Shown here: in pieces, positions 2,095 to 16,232 of the stretch | Position numbering within the stretch: position 1 is the first letter of the stretch | Layout of the letters: the number at the start of each line of letters is the position of its first letter | DNA from: a virus | IMG/VR virus record: IMGVR_UViG_3300028820_000007 | Location: 1-41,527 of that record | DNA length: 41,527 bases | Strand: one strand, 5' to 3' | Translations under genes and position numbers: made by a program | Notes under the pieces: generated by a model | Seen by the model: the letters and a program-made list of their open reading frames with translations, nothing else | What the model was told of the DNA's origin: nothing | The model's database searches: none

Positions 2095-3945
2095 ATGAGT
2101 GATGAATTTGATATAGACTTACTACATCAAGCTCTATCTTTAAGTGAAAGCGAGTTTGATTTATTTCTTGAAGATTGGTATAACTCACTTTCGAAAAATC
2201 AAGAGTTATCTAAATCTGTTTACCTAAAAATGGGTAAGCATAGAGATCCAAATGGAGGATTAACTAAAGAAGGCATCGAATACTATAACAGGAAAACTGG
2301 TTCTAATCTTAAACCAGGAGTTAATTGGAAACCTAGAACAGCTGAGGACTTTAGAAGAAAAGGCAGTTTTCTAGTTAGGTTTTACACAAACCCTGTCGGT
2401 CCTTTGGTAGATGAAAAAGGACAGTTAACAAGGTTAGCTAAGGCAGCCCGGGCGTGGGGTGAGCATGCTCCCACTACACGAGCTGCAGCAGCTAAACTAG
2501 CAGCAAAGGGTAGAAGCCTACTAGAAAAAGCTAAACGAATGAAGGAGAGTAGAAAGAGAGTAAAGGCTAGTCTTAACTCTCTTTATGAACAGTACTCTAT
2601 TCCTTCTAAAAACCCCGATGATTATTTAGTAGTTGAGGATAGAGATAAAGTATCTACTTACCATTTACAAGTAAAAGAAAATGGTGTTCCCAATCCACGT
2701 TTAATGGGAGCTGCTTGGCGTGCTCTATATCATCCATCAGGACACCGAGGTAACCCATATAAGGGTCCACAAAAAGATAAAGCTAAACGTAAATTAAGGG
2801 CATTATATAAATCTCTAGGAAGAGAGATGCCTAGAGTACAGAGACATAGTCTTTTTAGTTCTGATGGTGTAGAGACTAAAGAAACTAATCAGGAGTTAAG
2901 CAAATCACTTAGATTAAGGAACTTTATTTATAACCTTGTAGAAAAACCTATAAAAAGGGGAATGGCAATACGAAATCCAGTTATACGAAAGTTAACTTCA
3001 AATGAACATGTCGATTCTAATTTAGATGGTTTTGATGCAAATACTTTAGATTATCGAGAGTCTTGCTCTGATCTTGATGTGGATTTAAATGAATTACTTC
3101 CAGAACTGGAGAATAAATTATCTCAACTAACAAACTCAGATAAATACTCAAACTGTTCTAAAGAAACGTTAAAGTTAGCTTTGAGTATATCGAAAGATAT
3201 TATTCTTAGTCTATTAGGATTGAATTTATCTGAGTCTACTTTTACTGAAGAATTAGATGAAGCTGAGTATTATCTATCAGACTCAGAGTTAGGTGAAAAC
3301 AGACTATCTGTACTTAATACAGAATCATATAGTTTAGAAGAAGTTGATCTTCCAGATGGATTTGTATTTTTAACTACTGTTGATAGGGACTTCATTCTAA
3401 GGAAATACACTTTCAATGATTACAGCCAGGCTATTTCGTTTGTAAACGACATTTACAATAAAGCAGAAGATGTTGGACACCATCCTATTGAATTGTTAAC
3501 TATATACAATTCTCCAGTAACAGAAGTCTATGTAAAGCTAAGTACAAATGATGAAAAAATTGGCGATGCCACTGTTGAGTTTAATACCGTTACTCTAAAA
3601 GATATTAGCTTAGCTAACTATTGTAATAGTATATACAACACTCACTATAAGAGTGGTCTATCTAATAGCGGAAATGAAGAATTATCAAATAACGATGATG
3701 TAGAACTTACTAACTACTACATAGATCAGTTAAACATGGCTTTAAATGATTTAAAGCTTAGCAAAGAAATAGATCTTGATGATTACGAAAGCTATTCTGA
3801 GAGTATATTTCTAGACAGAGACAAGCACCAACAAGCTAAGGCAGAAGCTAAACTCAAATTCAGAGTTTACCCCAGCGTATATGCAAATATGTGGATGGTT
3901 AAGCGTTACAAAGAACTCGGGGGTAGATTTGCAAAACGGGATTGA
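2095..3945 (+). CDS. Multidomain head-region protein with a pterin dehydratase-like domain
   Basis: I place the start at ATG 2095 (616 aa). A frame-compatible ATG at 2074 would overlap the previous gene and add seven unlikely residues. Domains in order: residues 46-100, GGLTKEGIEYYNRKTGSNL and RRKGSF, resembling small DUF6321-type domains of large DNA viruses; 173-245, a segment around HLQV, LMGAAWRAL, HRGNPYKGP and LRALYKSLG of a type I associate with phage head-maturation proteins; 420-518, a domain aligning with pterin-4a-carbinolamine dehydratase (AEDVGHHP, YN, LST, DISLA); 583-612, KFRVYPSVYANMWMVKRYK, another small domain seen in viral proteins. Linkers are acidic and rich in Leu-Ser. 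Position just upstream of the protease/scaffold and capsid genes suggests a head-assembly or internal capsid protein. Domain calls are from motif recall; enzymatic activity is uncertain because one active-site His is Asn. Confidence 0.7.
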   Translation: MSDEFDIDLLHQALSLSESEFDLFLEDWYNSLSKNQELSKSVYLKMGKHRDPNGGLTKEGIEYYNRKTGSNLKPGVNWKPRTAEDFRRKGSFLVRFYTNPVGPLVDEKGQLTRLAKAARAWGEHAPTTRAAAAKLAAKGRSLLEKAKRMKESRKRVKASLNSLYEQYSIPSKNPDDYLVVEDRDKVSTYHLQVKENGVPNPRLMGAAWRALYHPSGHRGNPYKGPQKDKAKRKLRALYKSLGREMPRVQRHSLFSSDGVETKETNQELSKSLRLRNFIYNLVEKPIKRGMAIRNPVIRKLTSNEHVDSNLDGFDANTLDYRESCSDLDVDLNELLPELENKLSQLTNSDKYSNCSKETLKLALSISKDIILSLLGLNLSESTFTEELDEAEYYLSDSELGENRLSVLNTESYSLEEVDLPDGFVFLTTVDRDFILRKYTFNDYSQAISFVNDIYNKAEDVGHHPIELLTIYNSPVTEVYVKLSTNDEKIGDATVEFNTVTLKDISLANYCNSIYNTHYKSGLSNSGNEELSNNDDVELTNYYIDQLNMALNDLKLSKEIDLDDYESYSESIFLDRDKHQQAKAEAKLKFRVYPSVYANMWMVKRYKELGGRFAKRD

Positions 3946-4011: not shown

Positions 4012-6399
4012 ATGGAAAAGTACTTCTATATTTCACCTGAATTATACGAGCAGCTTTTGTCTGCACGTCTGTTAGATATATTAGACGAATCCAATTTAGA
4101 TGAACAATTACTAAGTGTATCACCAGAAGTCTGTAAGCAGCCTGGCGGACCAAAAGGCTTTTCTGCAATAGCTTCATGCAAAGCACAAGGTCTAATTCCT
4201 AGAGCAGATGGAAGAATTTATAAGTCAAAAGAGAAGCTATCAAATGACTGTAGTGAATTAGAGCTTGTAGTAAAACAACTATCCGAGAAGTATAGTTTAC
4301 ACCCAGGTGGATTGAAGAAGTGGTTTGAGGAGCAGACTCCTCCAGAAGCGATCAGAAAAAGAATAGAGGAAAAGACTGGTGAAAGTTTTCCTGGAGGTTG
4401 GGTACGTGTATCTGCAGAAACTGGTGAGATAATAGGTCCTTGCGGTAGAAAAAGTAGTAAAGATAATAGTTCCTATCCAAAGTGTATGAGTTACGAAAAG
4501 TGGAAAAGCTTATCAAAGCAAGAAAGAATTAACGCTGCAAGAAGAAAACAAGCAGAAGGTGTACCTGCATATGGTAAAGGCAATAAACCTAAGTTAGTTA
4601 AAACAGAGCTTTCAAACACAGTTAACTACGCAGATAGAACTATAACAACTCCAGTCAATAAACCTAAGGAATGGGATGGTCTAGCTTTATATGTTGAATA
4701 CTCACCTGGAGAACAAAGGATAGATTCAACAGGTGTAACTACCTTTTTAGATTTTTATGGTTACTTTGAAGACTCAAACAACTTAGATTCAGAAGAACTA
4801 GATTTTTATTATTACTCAGGTAATCCAGTTTCTAATAAAGTCTTTATTGTAGAGAAACAAACAGAAACAGGTGGATTAGATGAGCTCAAGGTTATGCTAG
4901 GCTACCCTTCACAATTGGATGCAATGAAGGCTTACCTAGCTCATAATCCACCTGAATCTTTTAAATCTATTTACGAAATATCTTCTTCGGCTTTGCATTC
5001 TTTTATAAAAGCTTCTAAGGAATTTAAGTTATCTAATAGTCTTCTATTAGATAAAGTAATTGAGACTAATAGTTCCGACATAGATATATATCCTATTAAG
5101 TTTGTAGCTTATAGGTCCGAAAGTTTTAGTAACACGCCACGACCAATGCTCAAAATTCCTGTTGCAAAGCTTGGTTCTTGGGTACATACAGTCTATAAAA
5201 AAGTTGAGTTCACTCAACGTGATTTTGATGACATGATACGGAATTTTAAAAATGATGTTCTCGGATTTCCACCTTATTGTAGGTATGGACACTCAAAGTA
5301 TCCAAATAGTGTAGATGCAGAACCTTCTGTAGGTGAAGTTAAAGATTTAGTACAGGAGGGTGACATACTCTATTCCATAGTTGAACCAAATAATGACGAG
5401 ACAGTAGAGGAGATAAGATCTAAGAAATATAGGTTTAGTAGTCCTGAAGTAACTAGAAATTTTATTGATAAAAATACAGGTAAAAATCTAGGTACAGTTT
5501 TAACTGCAATTTCACTTACAAATGCACCTTTTCTCCCTAACCTTCCTGACAATCAAGTATTAAGCATCAACTGCCCAGATTCAAAAGATTTTTTTATATT
5601 AAATCTTAGTACATGCGAACATATCTCTGGTGTTGAAGTAGCTAAATGCACTTCACCTGAGTCTATAAGTATGTCATCTAGTAGATTGTATATGGAAAAT
5701 AAAATGAATGTCACACTTAGTGAAGGAGCAGTTAGCGAAGCTTCCCAGGAAGAATTGGCCATGAATGCTCCTATGAAAGAGCTCATGAAATCTCCTGCAA
5801 AAGAAGTTATGAAGTCTCAACCTGAAATGGAAGAGATGGATGCAGAACAGAAGAAGCAGGAGATGTCCAAAAAAGAAAAAATGTCTAGTAAAGATACTAA
5901 GGAGAAAATGAGTCAGTCTGTTGATACTCCAGTATCTGTATCTACAGAGCAGCTGCTGAGTCAGATTCAAGCTCTTTCTAAACAAATGGAAGAGCTATCG
6001 AATGCTTATCAAGCAAGACTTAAGGAAGCTGATGAACGACTAAACCAAGCTTTATCTATTAATGCACAGCTTGAAGCTCGTCTAAGAGAGACTGAAGCAA
6101 GAACTGAGTATTTAACTTCTCAAGCTTATGCAGCTGAACTTAGCAATCGTAAAGCTGAGTATATTCGTAAAGGTATTCCGCCTTTTATTGTTAATAAAGT
6201 ATTTGACATAATCCAGTCTAATCCCTCTCAACAAATTAGATTGTCTAACGGTGAGCAAGTTACTTTGCAGTCCCAGCTAGAGGAACTTCTTTCCCAGTTT
6301 CCTCCTGAGTTTAGAATAAGCTTCCAGCAGTTCTCCAGCACTGCTACACCTGCTCAAAAAGCAGAAAATCCCTATAGAAAAGCTGGAATTATCAAGTAA
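4012..6399 (+). CDS. Prohead protease (Mu gpI-like) fused to pyrophosphatase-like domain and scaffold
   Basis: This 795-aa polypeptide combines several parts. Residues 38-75 and 96-195 hold short Cys-containing segments (CKQPGGPKGFSAIASC; GGWVRVSAETGEIIGPCGR; YPKC) like DUF5872-type modules. Residues 207-335 match phage inorganic-pyrophosphatase-like domains: VEYSPGEQR, YGYF, DSEELD, FIVEKQ, DELKVMLG. Residues 378-515 match the Mu gpI-type protease: FTQRDFDDMIRNFK, GH at 426-427, GEVKDL, YRFSSPE at 473-479, then LTNAPFLPNLP. Residues 570-635 are Met/Lys/Glu rich, and 640-715 form a predicted coiled coil typical of a scaffold. The capsid gene follows directly, fitting a protease-scaffold role in prohead assembly and maturation. 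Extra N-terminal domains make it much longer than Mu gpI (361 aa). The pyrophosphatase metal motif is altered (DxD to DxE), so activity is doubtful. Confidence 0.83.
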   Translation: MEKYFYISPELYEQLLSARLLDILDESNLDEQLLSVSPEVCKQPGGPKGFSAIASCKAQGLIPRADGRIYKSKEKLSNDCSELELVVKQLSEKYSLHPGGLKKWFEEQTPPEAIRKRIEEKTGESFPGGWVRVSAETGEIIGPCGRKSSKDNSSYPKCMSYEKWKSLSKQERINAARRKQAEGVPAYGKGNKPKLVKTELSNTVNYADRTITTPVNKPKEWDGLALYVEYSPGEQRIDSTGVTTFLDFYGYFEDSNNLDSEELDFYYYSGNPVSNKVFIVEKQTETGGLDELKVMLGYPSQLDAMKAYLAHNPPESFKSIYEISSSALHSFIKASKEFKLSNSLLLDKVIETNSSDIDIYPIKFVAYRSESFSNTPRPMLKIPVAKLGSWVHTVYKKVEFTQRDFDDMIRNFKNDVLGFPPYCRYGHSKYPNSVDAEPSVGEVKDLVQEGDILYSIVEPNNDETVEEIRSKKYRFSSPEVTRNFIDKNTGKNLGTVLTAISLTNAPFLPNLPDNQVLSINCPDSKDFFILNLSTCEHISGVEVAKCTSPESISMSSSRLYMENKMNVTLSEGAVSEASQEELAMNAPMKELMKSPAKEVMKSQPEMEEMDAEQKKQEMSKKEKMSSKDTKEKMSQSVDTPVSVSTEQLLSQIQALSKQMEELSNAYQARLKEADERLNQALSINAQLEARLRETEARTEYLTSQAYAAELSNRKAEYIRKGIPPFIVNKVFDIIQSNPSQQIRLSNGEQVTLQSQLEELLSQFPPEFRISFQQFSSTATPAQKAENPYRKAGIIK

Positions 6400-6427: not shown

Positions 6428-7636
6428 ATGCTTGCCCCTACTGCTTTAAACACCCCATATCAAGATGGTGTACCTATTCTCGGCTTAGGTTATACAGAGC
6501 TTCTAGAGGTTGCCGAGTATTTCGCGCAACTAGAAGATCAAAATAATGGGGATCCACTTGCCGAGTTCTTTCCTGATGAAAATATAACAGCTTTTAAAGT
6601 AAAAATCCAGCGTCGTAAAACTGGTGTAGGTATTACTCCGCTGGTTAACTTCGGACAACCTGACGTGTTCGTTCCGGATGATAGCTATGACGAGAAAGAA
6701 GTCACTCCCTTCCCTATTCGGGAGTCTGCACTAATTTCTCAGGTGACTATCAACCATCTACGCAAGTTTGGCACTTACAACGAAACCGGAGCAGGTTTAG
6801 AAGAAGTTGCTCGAGTAATGCAGCGCTTAGTAGAAAGGCGTAACAACTTTATTAGAGTTGTTCGTGCTAAGCAAATGCTGGGTGGGATCTCTTATGTAGA
6901 TCCCCGTACTAAAGTTGGCATTTCTCTATCGGCTAACTTCCACCCTGCTAACCTAGTTACATTAACTACTAACGATTTCTTTACGAACAAAGCTTCTGAT
7001 CCAATTCAAATCTTGCTTAGACATAAGTATGAATTACATACGCTAGGTAAAGCTGAACCTACGCATATCATTATGTCTAAGCATATGCGTTTCATTCTAG
7101 AGAACCACCCAGCTGTAAGAGCCAACATGGGCTTTTACTTACCTGCTCCACTAACCGCTGGTACCAACGCTCCTCAAGGTTTTGTGGGTGCTAGCCTAGC
7201 AGCCTATCAAGGCTATGCAACTATGGAGGGTGGTAAGCTTACTTCCATTGCTGGTCTAAAAGTAGTAGTTGTAGATACTCTGTATGAAGACCCAGCTAAT
7301 GGATTTAAAGTAACAGAGGTTTGGCCTCCTCACAAAGTAGCAATTGTTGCCAAGCAACGTGGTTCAGCCATTGTTGGGCGTACAACCCACACTCTTGGTG
7401 AGAACCCTGATATGAAGCCTGGTATGTACGTTCGTGTCTCTACACGCGATTTAGAGCCTCCTCAGGCACCTGGTGGTAGATTAATGCAGTTAGGCGACAA
7501 CCTAATTCCGCACTTTATCTACCCTGATTGGGTTCGATTAATTGATGTGTCTACTGAGGCTGAAGTCAAGAAAGTTGTAAACACCGGACTAGTAACTCTA
7601 ACGGTACCTAGCTTCGATCACACTCAAGTCCAGTAG
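6428..7636 (+). CDS. Major capsid protein (gpE-like HK97 fold)
   Basis: The 402-aa product has the features of the major capsid protein E family. An N-terminal segment leads to FFPDENITAFKVKIQRRKTG; a conserved P-loop-like stretch follows (VNFGQPDVFVPDD, then EVTPFPIRESALIS); a long helix (EEVARVMQRLVERRNNFIRVVRAKQML) forms the spine; and a C-terminal beta region contains VTEVWPPHKVAIVAKQRGSA. The gene sits directly after the protease/scaffold gene, the classic capsid order. Codons here include more C/G-ending forms (AAC, TTC, CGT) than in neighbours, as expected of a highly expressed gene. It is followed by a GC-rich hairpin. No obvious N-terminal cleavage site was recognised. Family call rests on pattern recall and gene order. 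Confidence 0.85.
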   Translation: MLAPTALNTPYQDGVPILGLGYTELLEVAEYFAQLEDQNNGDPLAEFFPDENITAFKVKIQRRKTGVGITPLVNFGQPDVFVPDDSYDEKEVTPFPIRESALISQVTINHLRKFGTYNETGAGLEEVARVMQRLVERRNNFIRVVRAKQMLGGISYVDPRTKVGISLSANFHPANLVTLTTNDFFTNKASDPIQILLRHKYELHTLGKAEPTHIIMSKHMRFILENHPAVRANMGFYLPAPLTAGTNAPQGFVGASLAAYQGYATMEGGKLTSIAGLKVVVVDTLYEDPANGFKVTEVWPPHKVAIVAKQRGSAIVGRTTHTLGENPDMKPGMYVRVSTRDLEPPQAPGGRLMQLGDNLIPHFIYPDWVRLIDVSTEAEVKKVVNTGLVTLTVPSFDHTQVQ

Positions 7637-12332: not shown

Positions 12333-15300
12333 GTGCCTATCGACGCTCTTTATCCCTCAATCTTTTTTAATGAAGATAACGTTGGGTTACGCCCACCGGT
12401 TAGTAGAGTTCAAAATAGAATAGGGATTGTTGGAGCTTTCTCCAGAGGTCCACAGAATGAGGGTATTGTTATTTCTAACAGAGAACAGCTTAGAAAAATT
12501 TTTGAAGAGGACTTATACCCAGGTTCTCTAGCTGTTCAAGCTGCAATGGACCAAGGCGCCAGAGACTTTGTTATAGTTAGAGCCCTATCTAAAGGTAGAG
12601 CGGGTAGAGGTGAGATATTAGTTGTAGGTACTGCTACTGTAAATCATATCGTTACTGTCTTAATAAGGGATGATAAAGGCCAAGTTGCTTTTGAGGCCAC
12701 TTCTATCGCTATTAATAACGGTGATAGTGAATTTAAAATACGAGATAAAATTGCTACAGCAATTGGAACTGACCCTAATCAACGAGTTCTACCTGAAGTA
12801 ATAGGTAATAAACTATATGTAACTGCTCAAGAGTTTGGCTATCACACAGATAACTGGACTGTACATGTTGTTCCTCTTAAACAGTTCGGTGCAGGTATTA
12901 TTGATGTTGATAGACTTAAGCAAGTCGAGTCAGCTCGGTTGACTAATCAATCGACAGCTTATGTATTCTATACCGGTTTGTACTACGACTATGAACCATC
13001 GAGTAATGCTGATGAATCTCTACCTACTGTAATTAGACCCAACGATAAGCAAATACGTGCAACCTTTAACTCAGTATCACCTAACCTACCTGTAACAATC
13101 AATGCAACTACTGATGTAATTACCTTAAATGGTCATAATTTACAGGTCGGTGACAGAATAAAATTTGGGTTTTCTACTCCACCTCGAGTGGGTAACAGCG
13201 ACATCTCATCTACAGATATTTACTACGTTACAAACGTTACTCAAGACACATTTCAAGTTGCAGCTACTCGGGCTCATGCTTTAGCTGGAACACCAGTTGT
13301 AGATTTTAGTTCAGCAGGTGCTAACGTAACAATTAATCATATAGAAGGTGCTTATCGACACAACCTAGCAGAACTAAGATCTTTCCCACTGATTGGTGTT
13401 GAGGCGCCTTTCCTTGTTCAATTAGGAGATGGTAATGGAGTTTTAAATACATATAAGTGGGATCCTGATAATTTATCAGCAGATGATGGCGATGATGTAA
13501 CAACTGCTAATTATATTAAACCCGAGGTTCTTACTATTGTTAACCCTGGTAGGTGGGTAAAAGATAACAATGCCTCAAACGGTCGTTGGATTATATCTAC
13601 TCCTCCCTCTGTAGGAACTACCTATGCGCCTACAACACCGGCTAGATTTACGGGTGGACAGGATCCTCCAACTGTTGCTGAAAGAATTTTATATCACGCA
13701 GATAACACTCCAATCTTAAAGGTACTAGCTAAGTCTCCTGGTGTTTGGGGTAACGATGTAGCTATTACAGTTACTCCTGCACAGCAGACCTTTGGTATTA
13801 TTCGTAAAGTTAACATGCGGATTGTTGATTACCGCAGAACTAACCGAGTTGCCAATGGTTTCTTTGAAGAGTTCTTACCTTCACTGGATCTACAAGATGT
13901 ATTCTACACAGCTTCGGGTAATACGTTACTTTCAGCGTCAAACCGTTCAGACTTAGTTAACCTACAGTATCTAGGTAAGACTGCTGATGATTTAACTAAG
14001 GTACCTACACATACAAAGGCTGTAGGAACTCTATCTTTCGCTTCTGATGCATCTGAAGATGGGACGCTCTTCATAGATATTAGAGATCGCAGATCTGGTT
14101 TTCCAATTGTCAATACTGTTAAGTATACCTACAGACAGTTTGACACTGCTCAAAGTATAGCTAAAGGTGTAGAACGCTTAATTAATAACTCCGGTACTAA
14201 GGCAGCTGTTACACTTAAATTCCTAGATGGTACTAGTATTTCCCAAAATAACACCTTAACTGTATTAGGTGTATCTACAGCACGTGCACCAGCTGGGGGT
14301 TATGACCGGTTTACACTAGTACAAGCTTTAAAAACAGCCTTTGTAGGCGATTTAAGGTATGATACAGTTGTTCTTCCTACCGGTGATGGTATACGCTTTG
14401 TACAAAAGAATGCAGGCGTAGATGAAACTCCTGTAAACATTACTAAGTCTCAAGCTACAGACATTGTAAATGTTTATATCTCAAATAACGCTAAAATTCT
14501 AAATTTGCATCCTGACGTACACTTAGTCAGTTCTATTGTTACGACACGAATTAAACTAACTGATGGAACAGTATTATCTCAACCAACCTTTGCTTTAGGA
14601 TCGCTAGCTTCACCTGTAACTGATATTGAAGTAGTTACAAATGCAATTGTAGCCTCTTGGGCAGGTAATAATGAGGTATTAGTCTCTAAAATTGATGCAA
14701 ATACACTTGAATTTAAACTAATAGACTCATCTGAGTTAGATATTGAAGAAGTAACCTTCACAGCTGCAGGTTTCCTTAAAGACGGTACTAATCAGTTCGG
14801 TGCTGCTTGGTCTAGCATTTGGCCAGGGACTTTTACTCTGAACATCAGTGGCCCTGTAGTTGTTGCAAGTGGTACTGTTGTAAACGTTGCTGGTACTGCG
14901 GTTACAATATCAAGCAATATAACAACACCTTCTGCTCTTGCTATACAACTAGCAGCAGGATTGGGATCAAGTAGGGTAATAAACGGTGTAACGTATAACG
15001 TTAGTGTTTCTGGCACTACTATTAAATTTACACCTGCTTCTGGTGCTTTTACACCTACTACACCTCTAGTAATAAATATAAACAACAGTCTAGTAGCTAA
15101 ACTTAACTTCTTAGGCTATCCAAATGCAACAACTACGCTAGGTGGAGGAGTACCAAATCTACCTGTCGAAGCTCGGTTAAATGGACTAGAGCTTATTCTA
15201 GAGGCTAAAGACGTAGGTGTACAAGGTAATTTAATTGAGTATAGAGCACGTACAAATAATCTTCTATCTATTACAGTACTTCCAGGTGATTATGAAAGGC

Positions 15301-16232
15301 TAGAAGGAGGTCAAGACCTAGCTACTGAGGCTTATCTTCGATATGGTAGTTTAGGACCTACGCTCAATGAAAAAGATTTCTTAGATGGATTAGAAGTACT
15401 AAGAAATCTTCAAGCAAACCTTATTGGGGTAGCTGCTACACCAGATGAATTTGGAAGACCTATTGAGACCTTAGATAGCATTCACTTTGCTCTAATACAG
15501 CAAGCTGAAACTGCTTCAGAAGAAGATGGTTTGAGGTTTGCTGTTCTAGCTGCACCTAAGGGCTTAACTGCCCAACAAGCTAGAAACTACATGGCGACTC
15601 AGCCTAATTCTAGATTTGGAAAGATGGTTGCTGGTTGGGTAACCTATGCAGGTCAACCTATTTTAGGTCAATACGCAGTGTCTCCTACCGGTTTTGCACT
15701 AGGTCACATAGCAGTGACTCCATTCCAAGTATCTACTGCTGCAAGAGCTTCATCTCCTCAAATTAGAAATGTGATTTCTACTGACGTTTCTGTTGGACAC
15801 GCAGCTAGAAACGAATATACACAAAATAGATTAGATATTATCTACCGAGAGGAAGGCAGTGGAATGGTACACTTCTTAAACGGAAGAACACTATCTACTG
15901 ACCCTGCTTGGTATTGGGATACAATTAGACGTGTTTATAACGTAATAAGGGAAGATCTATTCTTTAGCCTCCAGTGGGCTAAGTCTGAGCCATTGACACA
16001 GCAAACTGTACGCCAGATTAAAGATGCAGTTGATAACTATCTAGAGATTAGGAAGTCACAGGGTTTGATTCTTGAATATAGTAAGACAGAAATTAGTATC
16101 TCTAAAAACCCTGTAAGTGCCCTAATTAGTGGTAACCTAACGATAGATGCGTACTTTACTCCGATCTATCCTGCTGATAGACTAATTGTTAATCTGATAA
16201 GACAACCAGAGCGTGTAACAATAGCACTCTAA
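12333..16232 (+). CDS. Contractile tail sheath protein (oversized)
   Basis: The start is GTG; the resulting N-terminus (MPIDALYPSIFFNED, then RIGIVGAFSRGP) is the standard sheath opening, followed by SLAVQAAMDQGARDFVIVRAL. The C-terminal 300 residues are typical too: ETLDSIHFALIQQAE, RFAVLAAPKG, SRFGKMVAGW, a long helix near AWYWDTIRRVYNVIRED, and ISISKNPVSALISGNLTIDAYF. At 1299 aa it is about twice T4 gp18 (659 aa). Extra material lies in the middle. Residues about 252-336 (ITLNGHNLQVGDRIKF, IYYVTNVTQDTFQVA) match the HGL-xxGD virion domain found in many phage structural proteins. GGQD occurs twice (about 440 and 992), each near a GVWGN or GVQGN element, suggesting duplication of a sheath subdomain. 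The protein would form the contractile tube around the tail. Confidence 0.92.
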   Translation: MPIDALYPSIFFNEDNVGLRPPVSRVQNRIGIVGAFSRGPQNEGIVISNREQLRKIFEEDLYPGSLAVQAAMDQGARDFVIVRALSKGRAGRGEILVVGTATVNHIVTVLIRDDKGQVAFEATSIAINNGDSEFKIRDKIATAIGTDPNQRVLPEVIGNKLYVTAQEFGYHTDNWTVHVVPLKQFGAGIIDVDRLKQVESARLTNQSTAYVFYTGLYYDYEPSSNADESLPTVIRPNDKQIRATFNSVSPNLPVTINATTDVITLNGHNLQVGDRIKFGFSTPPRVGNSDISSTDIYYVTNVTQDTFQVAATRAHALAGTPVVDFSSAGANVTINHIEGAYRHNLAELRSFPLIGVEAPFLVQLGDGNGVLNTYKWDPDNLSADDGDDVTTANYIKPEVLTIVNPGRWVKDNNASNGRWIISTPPSVGTTYAPTTPARFTGGQDPPTVAERILYHADNTPILKVLAKSPGVWGNDVAITVTPAQQTFGIIRKVNMRIVDYRRTNRVANGFFEEFLPSLDLQDVFYTASGNTLLSASNRSDLVNLQYLGKTADDLTKVPTHTKAVGTLSFASDASEDGTLFIDIRDRRSGFPIVNTVKYTYRQFDTAQSIAKGVERLINNSGTKAAVTLKFLDGTSISQNNTLTVLGVSTARAPAGGYDRFTLVQALKTAFVGDLRYDTVVLPTGDGIRFVQKNAGVDETPVNITKSQATDIVNVYISNNAKILNLHPDVHLVSSIVTTRIKLTDGTVLSQPTFALGSLASPVTDIEVVTNAIVASWAGNNEVLVSKIDANTLEFKLIDSSELDIEEVTFTAAGFLKDGTNQFGAAWSSIWPGTFTLNISGPVVVASGTVVNVAGTAVTISSNITTPSALAIQLAAGLGSSRVINGVTYNVSVSGTTIKFTPASGAFTPTTPLVININNSLVAKLNFLGYPNATTTLGGGVPNLPVEARLNGLELILEAKDVGVQGNLIEYRARTNNLLSITVLPGDYERLEGGQDLATEAYLRYGSLGPTLNEKDFLDGLEVLRNLQANLIGVAATPDEFGRPIETLDSIHFALIQQAETASEEDGLRFAVLAAPKGLTAQQARNYMATQPNSRFGKMVAGWVTYAGQPILGQYAVSPTGFALGHIAVTPFQVSTAARASSPQIRNVISTDVSVGHAARNEYTQNRLDIIYREEGSGMVHFLNGRTLSTDPAWYWDTIRRVYNVIREDLFFSLQWAKSEPLTQQTVRQIKDAVDNYLEIRKSQGLILEYSKTEISISKNPVSALISGNLTIDAYFTPIYPADRLIVNLIRQPERVTIAL

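Follow-up and report, generated by a model that had tools for sequence, protein, structure and literature searches.

What would a phage need the fold of a pterin dehydratase for, in a protein encoded beside its capsid genes? The window (the whole stretch of DNA analysed here, a 41.5-kb virus record of 41,527 nucleotides) encodes a 616-aa protein in which the original prediction had recognized a domain resembling pterin-4a-carbinolamine dehydratase (PCD, or DCoH). The domain does lie at residues 420-518, counted from the ATG at 2095, as had been described, and the profile PF01329 and the predicted fold both agree with this assignment. The ORF and its parts are the following:

2095..3945, + strand: 616-aa multi-domain protein (P0001) carrying the PCD-like domain, in the head gene block; intact in a second contig at 90% identity
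2239..2457, + strand: DUF6321 domain, residues 49-121 (PF19846, E 5e-24)
2599..2844, + strand: unnamed domain, residues 169-250, conserved more strongly than the rest of the protein (dN/dS 0.011 for the two phages)
3301..3309, + strand: candidate protease site RLS (KLS in the relative) on the N-terminal side of the PCD domain, hypothesized from motif counts
3352..3648, + strand: PCD/DCoH-fold domain, Pfam core 3382-3630 (PF01329, 37.6 bits; AF2 pLDDT 88; top Foldseek matches all PCD/DCoH)
3466..3486, + strand: retained E-x3-HHP, i.e. E458, H462, H463 and P464 (invariant in 51/51 aligned sequences)
3547..3549, + strand: Asn485 at the third catalytic His position (His in 47/51 aligned sequences)
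3562..3588, + strand: catalytic-loop insertion of ~9 residues, by prediction an additional beta-hairpin (alignment and AF2 model)
3679..3687, + strand: candidate protease site ELS on the C-terminal side of the PCD domain, hypothesized from motif counts
3805..3942, + strand: conserved C-terminal domain, weakly DUF5872-like (PF19197 below cut-off; phrog_27331, E 8e-5; dN/dS 0.024)

Homology, fold and distribution of the PCD domain

The Pfam family Pterin_4a (PF01329) matches residues 430-512 (window positions 3382-3630) with 37.6 bits against a cut-off of 26 (E 2.4e-9), a significant outcome for the profile check that had been proposed with the prediction. Moreover, a profile built from two sequences only, the window domain and its relative, aligned in hhalign with 19 cellular PCDs at a probability of 98.1 (E 1.3e-13), and on the E values of these two comparisons we rejected a chance match. 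Solved PCD/DCoH chains were also matched by the domain in a phmmer sequence search of the PDB, at E ~1e-4. The NCBIfam PCD equivalog models match it with E down to 1e-8, yet all of them below their own cut-offs: the 4a-hydroxytetrahydrobiopterin dehydratase equivalog reaches 34.8 bits where 146 are needed, and the other models score lower.

Structure prediction, the other check proposed, returned the alpha-beta PCD fold. The AF2 model computed from a 51-row alignment (pLDDT 88.3, pTM 0.80) shows the PCD succession of strands and helices, and the loop insertion builds an additional hairpin (model residues 75-80 and 83-89). With this model, Foldseek found 23 PDB matches at E<=0.001, all of them PCD/DCoH, the closest being 1dch (rmsd 1.3). 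Since the 51-row alignment includes PCDs, the model is not independent evidence for the fold. A second model, made from the two phage sequences alone, was poor (pLDDT 51), but its best 15 PDB matches were still all members of the PCD family. We regard the segment as a well supported, true but divergent member of the PCD/DCoH superfamily within a phage head-block protein, for which an ultimate origin in a cellular gene is the best explanation. In our tree it stands alone on a very long branch, with no clear nearest cellular relative.

How widespread is this arrangement? The search of IMG/VR yielded one related contig only, IMGVR_UViG_3300027279_000004 (46.8 kb), in which the same protein has the same architecture and an intact ORF, with 90% identity overall and 93-94% in the PCD domain. 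This relative was also the sole match of an IMG/VR DNA pattern written with the x6 spacing of the window domain. No match to the domain was obtained by tblastn among 50,697 phage records, and none to its model at E<=0.001 among the predicted viral structures of BFVD. A further locus, L004, found via the capsid protein, was rejected as a relative, as the match is a short chance one in an unrelated phage protein. Comparison of the two phages gave dN/dS values of 0.065 for the PCD core, 0.289 for the linker that precedes it (residues 251-415), 0.011 for the 169-250 domain and 0.042 for the capsid protein; the PCD domain is maintained by purifying selection. Residues 169-250 (window 2599-2844), 99% identical and nearly unchanged between the two phages, gave no match in a Pfam search.

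An altered active site

E458, H462, H463 and P464 are unchanged across the alignment (51/51 rows), and Asp503 is kept as well. Of the features expected from an active PCD (EC 4.2.1.96), the window domain possesses E-x3-H-H-P and lacks the third His and the standard catalytic loop. The replacement of the third active-site His by Asn, noticed in the original prediction, is borne out: this residue is His in 47 of the 51 aligned PCDs and Asn485 here. To this we add Phe423, absent from that prediction, which stands in place of a Trp common to 48/51 aligned sequences. Two other claims had to be amended. The motif E-x3-HHP-x6-Y, described as exact, is indeed present in the window, but most of the aligned PCDs have x5; x6 is thus a minority spacing, and "exact" fits the window and not the family norm. 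Furthermore, the alignment gives three insertions relative to PCDs, and not two: one residue after HHP, four ahead of the next strand and ~9 in the catalytic loop.

In the PCD motif, the third catalytic position is His or Trp, and PCDs deprived of one catalytic His have been reported from mutant studies to keep some activity. Changes at three places, the third His, the conserved Trp and the catalytic loop, make it probable that the window domain has lost its dehydratase activity or retains little of it. Two cellular PCD homologues are also devoid of the third catalytic His, which is Ser in Brumimicrobium oceani (L031, 2962-3234) and Phe in a Nitrososphaeraceae archaeon (L045, 2950-3210).

The window domain shares with the PCD/DCoH family (PF01329, COG2154; PDB 1dch, 3jst, 2ebb) the fold, E-x3-HHP, Y-N and the C-terminal D-x3-A. 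It differs from it by Asn for the third His, Phe for the Trp, its three insertions with the additional hairpin in the catalytic loop, and by being embedded in a 616-aa phage protein. A precedent for a PCD domain that is inactive and has a non-enzymatic role, in assembly, exists in Raf2 (PMC5859369). Raf2 and acRAF (PDB 4low) have in common with our domain the PCD fold and an altered active site; however, they are separate proteins acting on Rubisco, whereas the window domain keeps HHP and lies in a phage head block. The acRAF structure 4low ranks below all true PCDs by sequence and by fold, and the window domain is therefore not closer to it.

Head genes, candidate protease sites and the possible role of the domain

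The PCD-bearing ORF is followed by a fused InPase/head protease gene and then by the major capsid gene:

4012..6399, + strand: 795-aa protein with an InPase domain (4669-5007), a head maturation protease (5146-5616) and a scaffold-like tail (PF18823, E 1e-16; phrog_32941, E 1e-25; phrog_3894, E 0.0018)
6428..7636, + strand: major capsid protein (PF03864, E 3e-14; phrog_30785, E 4e-34)

The window's major capsid protein shares ~29% identity with its counterpart in Microcystis phage LMM01, and the gene order (protease, capsid, further genes, sheath) is the LMM01 order. The window also encodes a tail sheath and baseplate proteins and therefore belongs to a contractile-tailed phage. Its sheath protein (window 12333-16232) is unusually long, 1299 aa, and sheath families match chiefly the C-terminal part. 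The InPase domain (PF18823, window 4669-5007), which lies upstream of the head maturation protease in the fused ORF, evolves under purifying selection (dN/dS 0.060).

DUF6321, the N-terminal domain of our protein, is found in a pelagiphage as a stand-alone gene between the scaffold and capsid genes, and in Synechococcus phage S-RIP1 it lies a few genes ahead of the capsid gene. In a survey of polyvalent phage proteins, InPase domains of this kind are described from such proteins, which are thought to be packaged (PMC5512222). The window presents a polyvalent-type architecture, with DUF6321, the 169-250 domain, the PCD domain and the C-terminal domain in one protein adjoining the head protease and capsid genes. 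It resembles the polyvalent proteins of that survey in having several unrelated domains in one head-linked protein, and the next ORF has the InPase domain known from them. Pterins go unmentioned in the survey's main text. The PCD module seems to be an addition to the putatively packaged polyvalent proteins, and it adds a module of enzyme origin to the domains linked with phage heads. A head-internal place for the 616-aa protein is likely from its gene context. Of the original interpretation, the PCD/DCoH fold inside a head-block protein is supported, and a place in the virion is suggested by this context.

Could the domain be released from its carrier? The motif [EK]LS[NKS], chosen after inspection, occurs four times in the PCD-bearing ORF and five times in the next one, where ~0.2 and 0.4 copies are expected, respectively, and reaches three copies in no other ORF. 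The copies are mostly interdomain, and in the relative they retain L-S for the most part. Candidate LS sites lie near residues 39, 269, 405 and 531. In particular, RLS at 403, which reads KLS in the relative, and a second site, ELS at 529, bracket the PCD domain. One KLS falls within the PCD fold, and the statistics of the exact tripeptides are marginal once corrected. T4-type (L/I)xE sites showed no enrichment in the PCD-bearing ORF. On these motifs we base the hypothesis that the prohead protease may cleave at LS.

We infer packaging, cleavage, delivery and a loss of activity along the following lines. The 616-aa protein would be drawn into the prohead together with the protease/scaffold protein; there the prohead protease may cut at the [E/K/R]-L-S linkers, which would free a piece of ~14 kDa (residues ~406-530). 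This PCD piece would be packaged and, in the way suggested for other polyvalent head proteins, may pass into the host together with the DNA. The module is a concrete test case for the excision, packaging and injection of such modules.

Which function would such a piece serve? Searches with the families Biopterin_H, PTPS and GTP_cyclohydroI covered 16 records (the window, its relative and 14 PCD-bearing records) and found neither a biopterin-dependent hydroxylase nor PTPS nor GTP cyclohydrolase I; a phage pterin pathway was rejected for these 16 records. Many of them are fragments, and pterin genes may lie elsewhere in the genomes. As no pterin pathway gene accompanies the domain, the question becomes what phages need the PCD fold for. 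We favor a module that binds a ligand or a protein, or acts as an effector, within a head-internal protein whose dehydratase activity is lost or much reduced, because the His and the Trp are changed, the loop is remodelled and partner pterin genes are lacking. We give this reading about an even chance of being right: E458 and the HH pair, needless for a pure binding module, are fully kept, which counts against it and leaves room for weak catalysis, and the activity kept by single-His mutants also counts against it. A domain that still works as a pterin dehydratase, if weakly or on an altered substrate, either delivered by the virion or made during infection and acting on host pterins, would account for the conservation of E458, H462, H463 and D503 and for the purifying selection, and phage PCDs with all three His do exist as stand-alone proteins. 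We consider it rather unlikely, since Asn and Phe stand in place of the third His and the Trp, the catalytic loop is altered, the 16 records are devoid of pterin pathway genes, and a metabolic enzyme would be oddly placed in a structural gene block.

The adjoining protease/scaffold and capsid genes might instead point to an oligomerization or scaffold module that serves head assembly only, with no role after packaging, in the manner of DCoH dimers or Raf2; elsewhere, indeed, PCD folds act in dimerization (1f93) and as assembly factors (PMC5859369). However, LMM01 and My-WqHQDG have the same protease-capsid order without a PCD-like domain in the capsid-adjacent protease protein, and neither gave any match to the PCD domain. 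The domain would thus seem dispensable for assembling the head in this group, and an assembly-only role seems to us unlikely. That the resemblance is fortuitous, or the domain a functionless, decaying remnant, could be argued from the single related contig in IMG/VR and from the length of the branch to cellular PCDs, but the agreement of several profile methods, the intact architecture in the second contig and the dN/dS of 0.065 make this highly improbable.

Stand-alone PCDs in large uncultivated phages

When IMG/VR was searched with the DNA pattern for AE-x3-HHP-x5-YN, stand-alone PCD-like ORFs turned up at 17 loci; several are identical, and many lie on long phage contigs. Among the 11 stand-alone phage PCDs placed in the tree, nine form one clade (support 99/94), separate from the window domain. 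These proteins (L006-L007, L010-L020, L022, L024) have in common with our case a phage-borne PCD domain, and N-terminal tags that suggest head cargo. They differ from it in that they keep the third His, and so all three, often have Cys for the C-terminal Asp, consist of a single domain and belong to another phage group. L009 and L023 are short contigs, and L009, which groups with cellular Bacteroidota, may be non-viral. MT835479.1 (L028), the sole INPHARED record matched by the stand-alone phage PCDs, was not counted as a phage, being of high GC and unannotated, with bacterial-looking ORFs. This record, publicly listed as a "Bacteriophage sp." of human faecal origin, resembles a fragment of a high-GC bacterial chromosome with an ordinary PCD gene.

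A short N-terminal tag containing (L/I)-x-E is found in 63 of 150 ORFs (~42%) from 13 loci (L006, L007, L010-L013, L016-L020, L022, L024), versus 5-13/150 at internal positions. Otherwise unrelated proteins carry one of a few such tags, in each of which (L/I)-x-E lies close to the N-terminus, namely MNLQENIRRI, MKIIITESQ, MKYIITETQ, MKKIVKLTESDL and MKYLKLFE. The internal proteins of T4 are steered into the head by propeptides of ~10 residues that are removed there (PMC9026906). By analogy, the tags suggest that the stand-alone PCDs may be head cargo, and the tagged ORFs as a whole look like a large set of cargo proteins, putatively directed to the head by a T4-like peptide that can be removed.

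These observations suggest that phages have put the PCD fold to new use, either for binding or as cargo of the virion. More tentatively, and as less likely than not, it may have been recruited at least twice as virion cargo, as a protease-excised, injected module in the phage studied here and as tagged stand-alone proteins in large phages. If true, this would point to a host target or a ligand of the PCD fold in early infection.

In three of the loci (L007, L012 and L022) we also observed C-terminal tags common to several tagged but unrelated proteins, such as CW.GYT.KGMKTMFGK.YPNCVKK and YARTLKNARRQGVG.RF.
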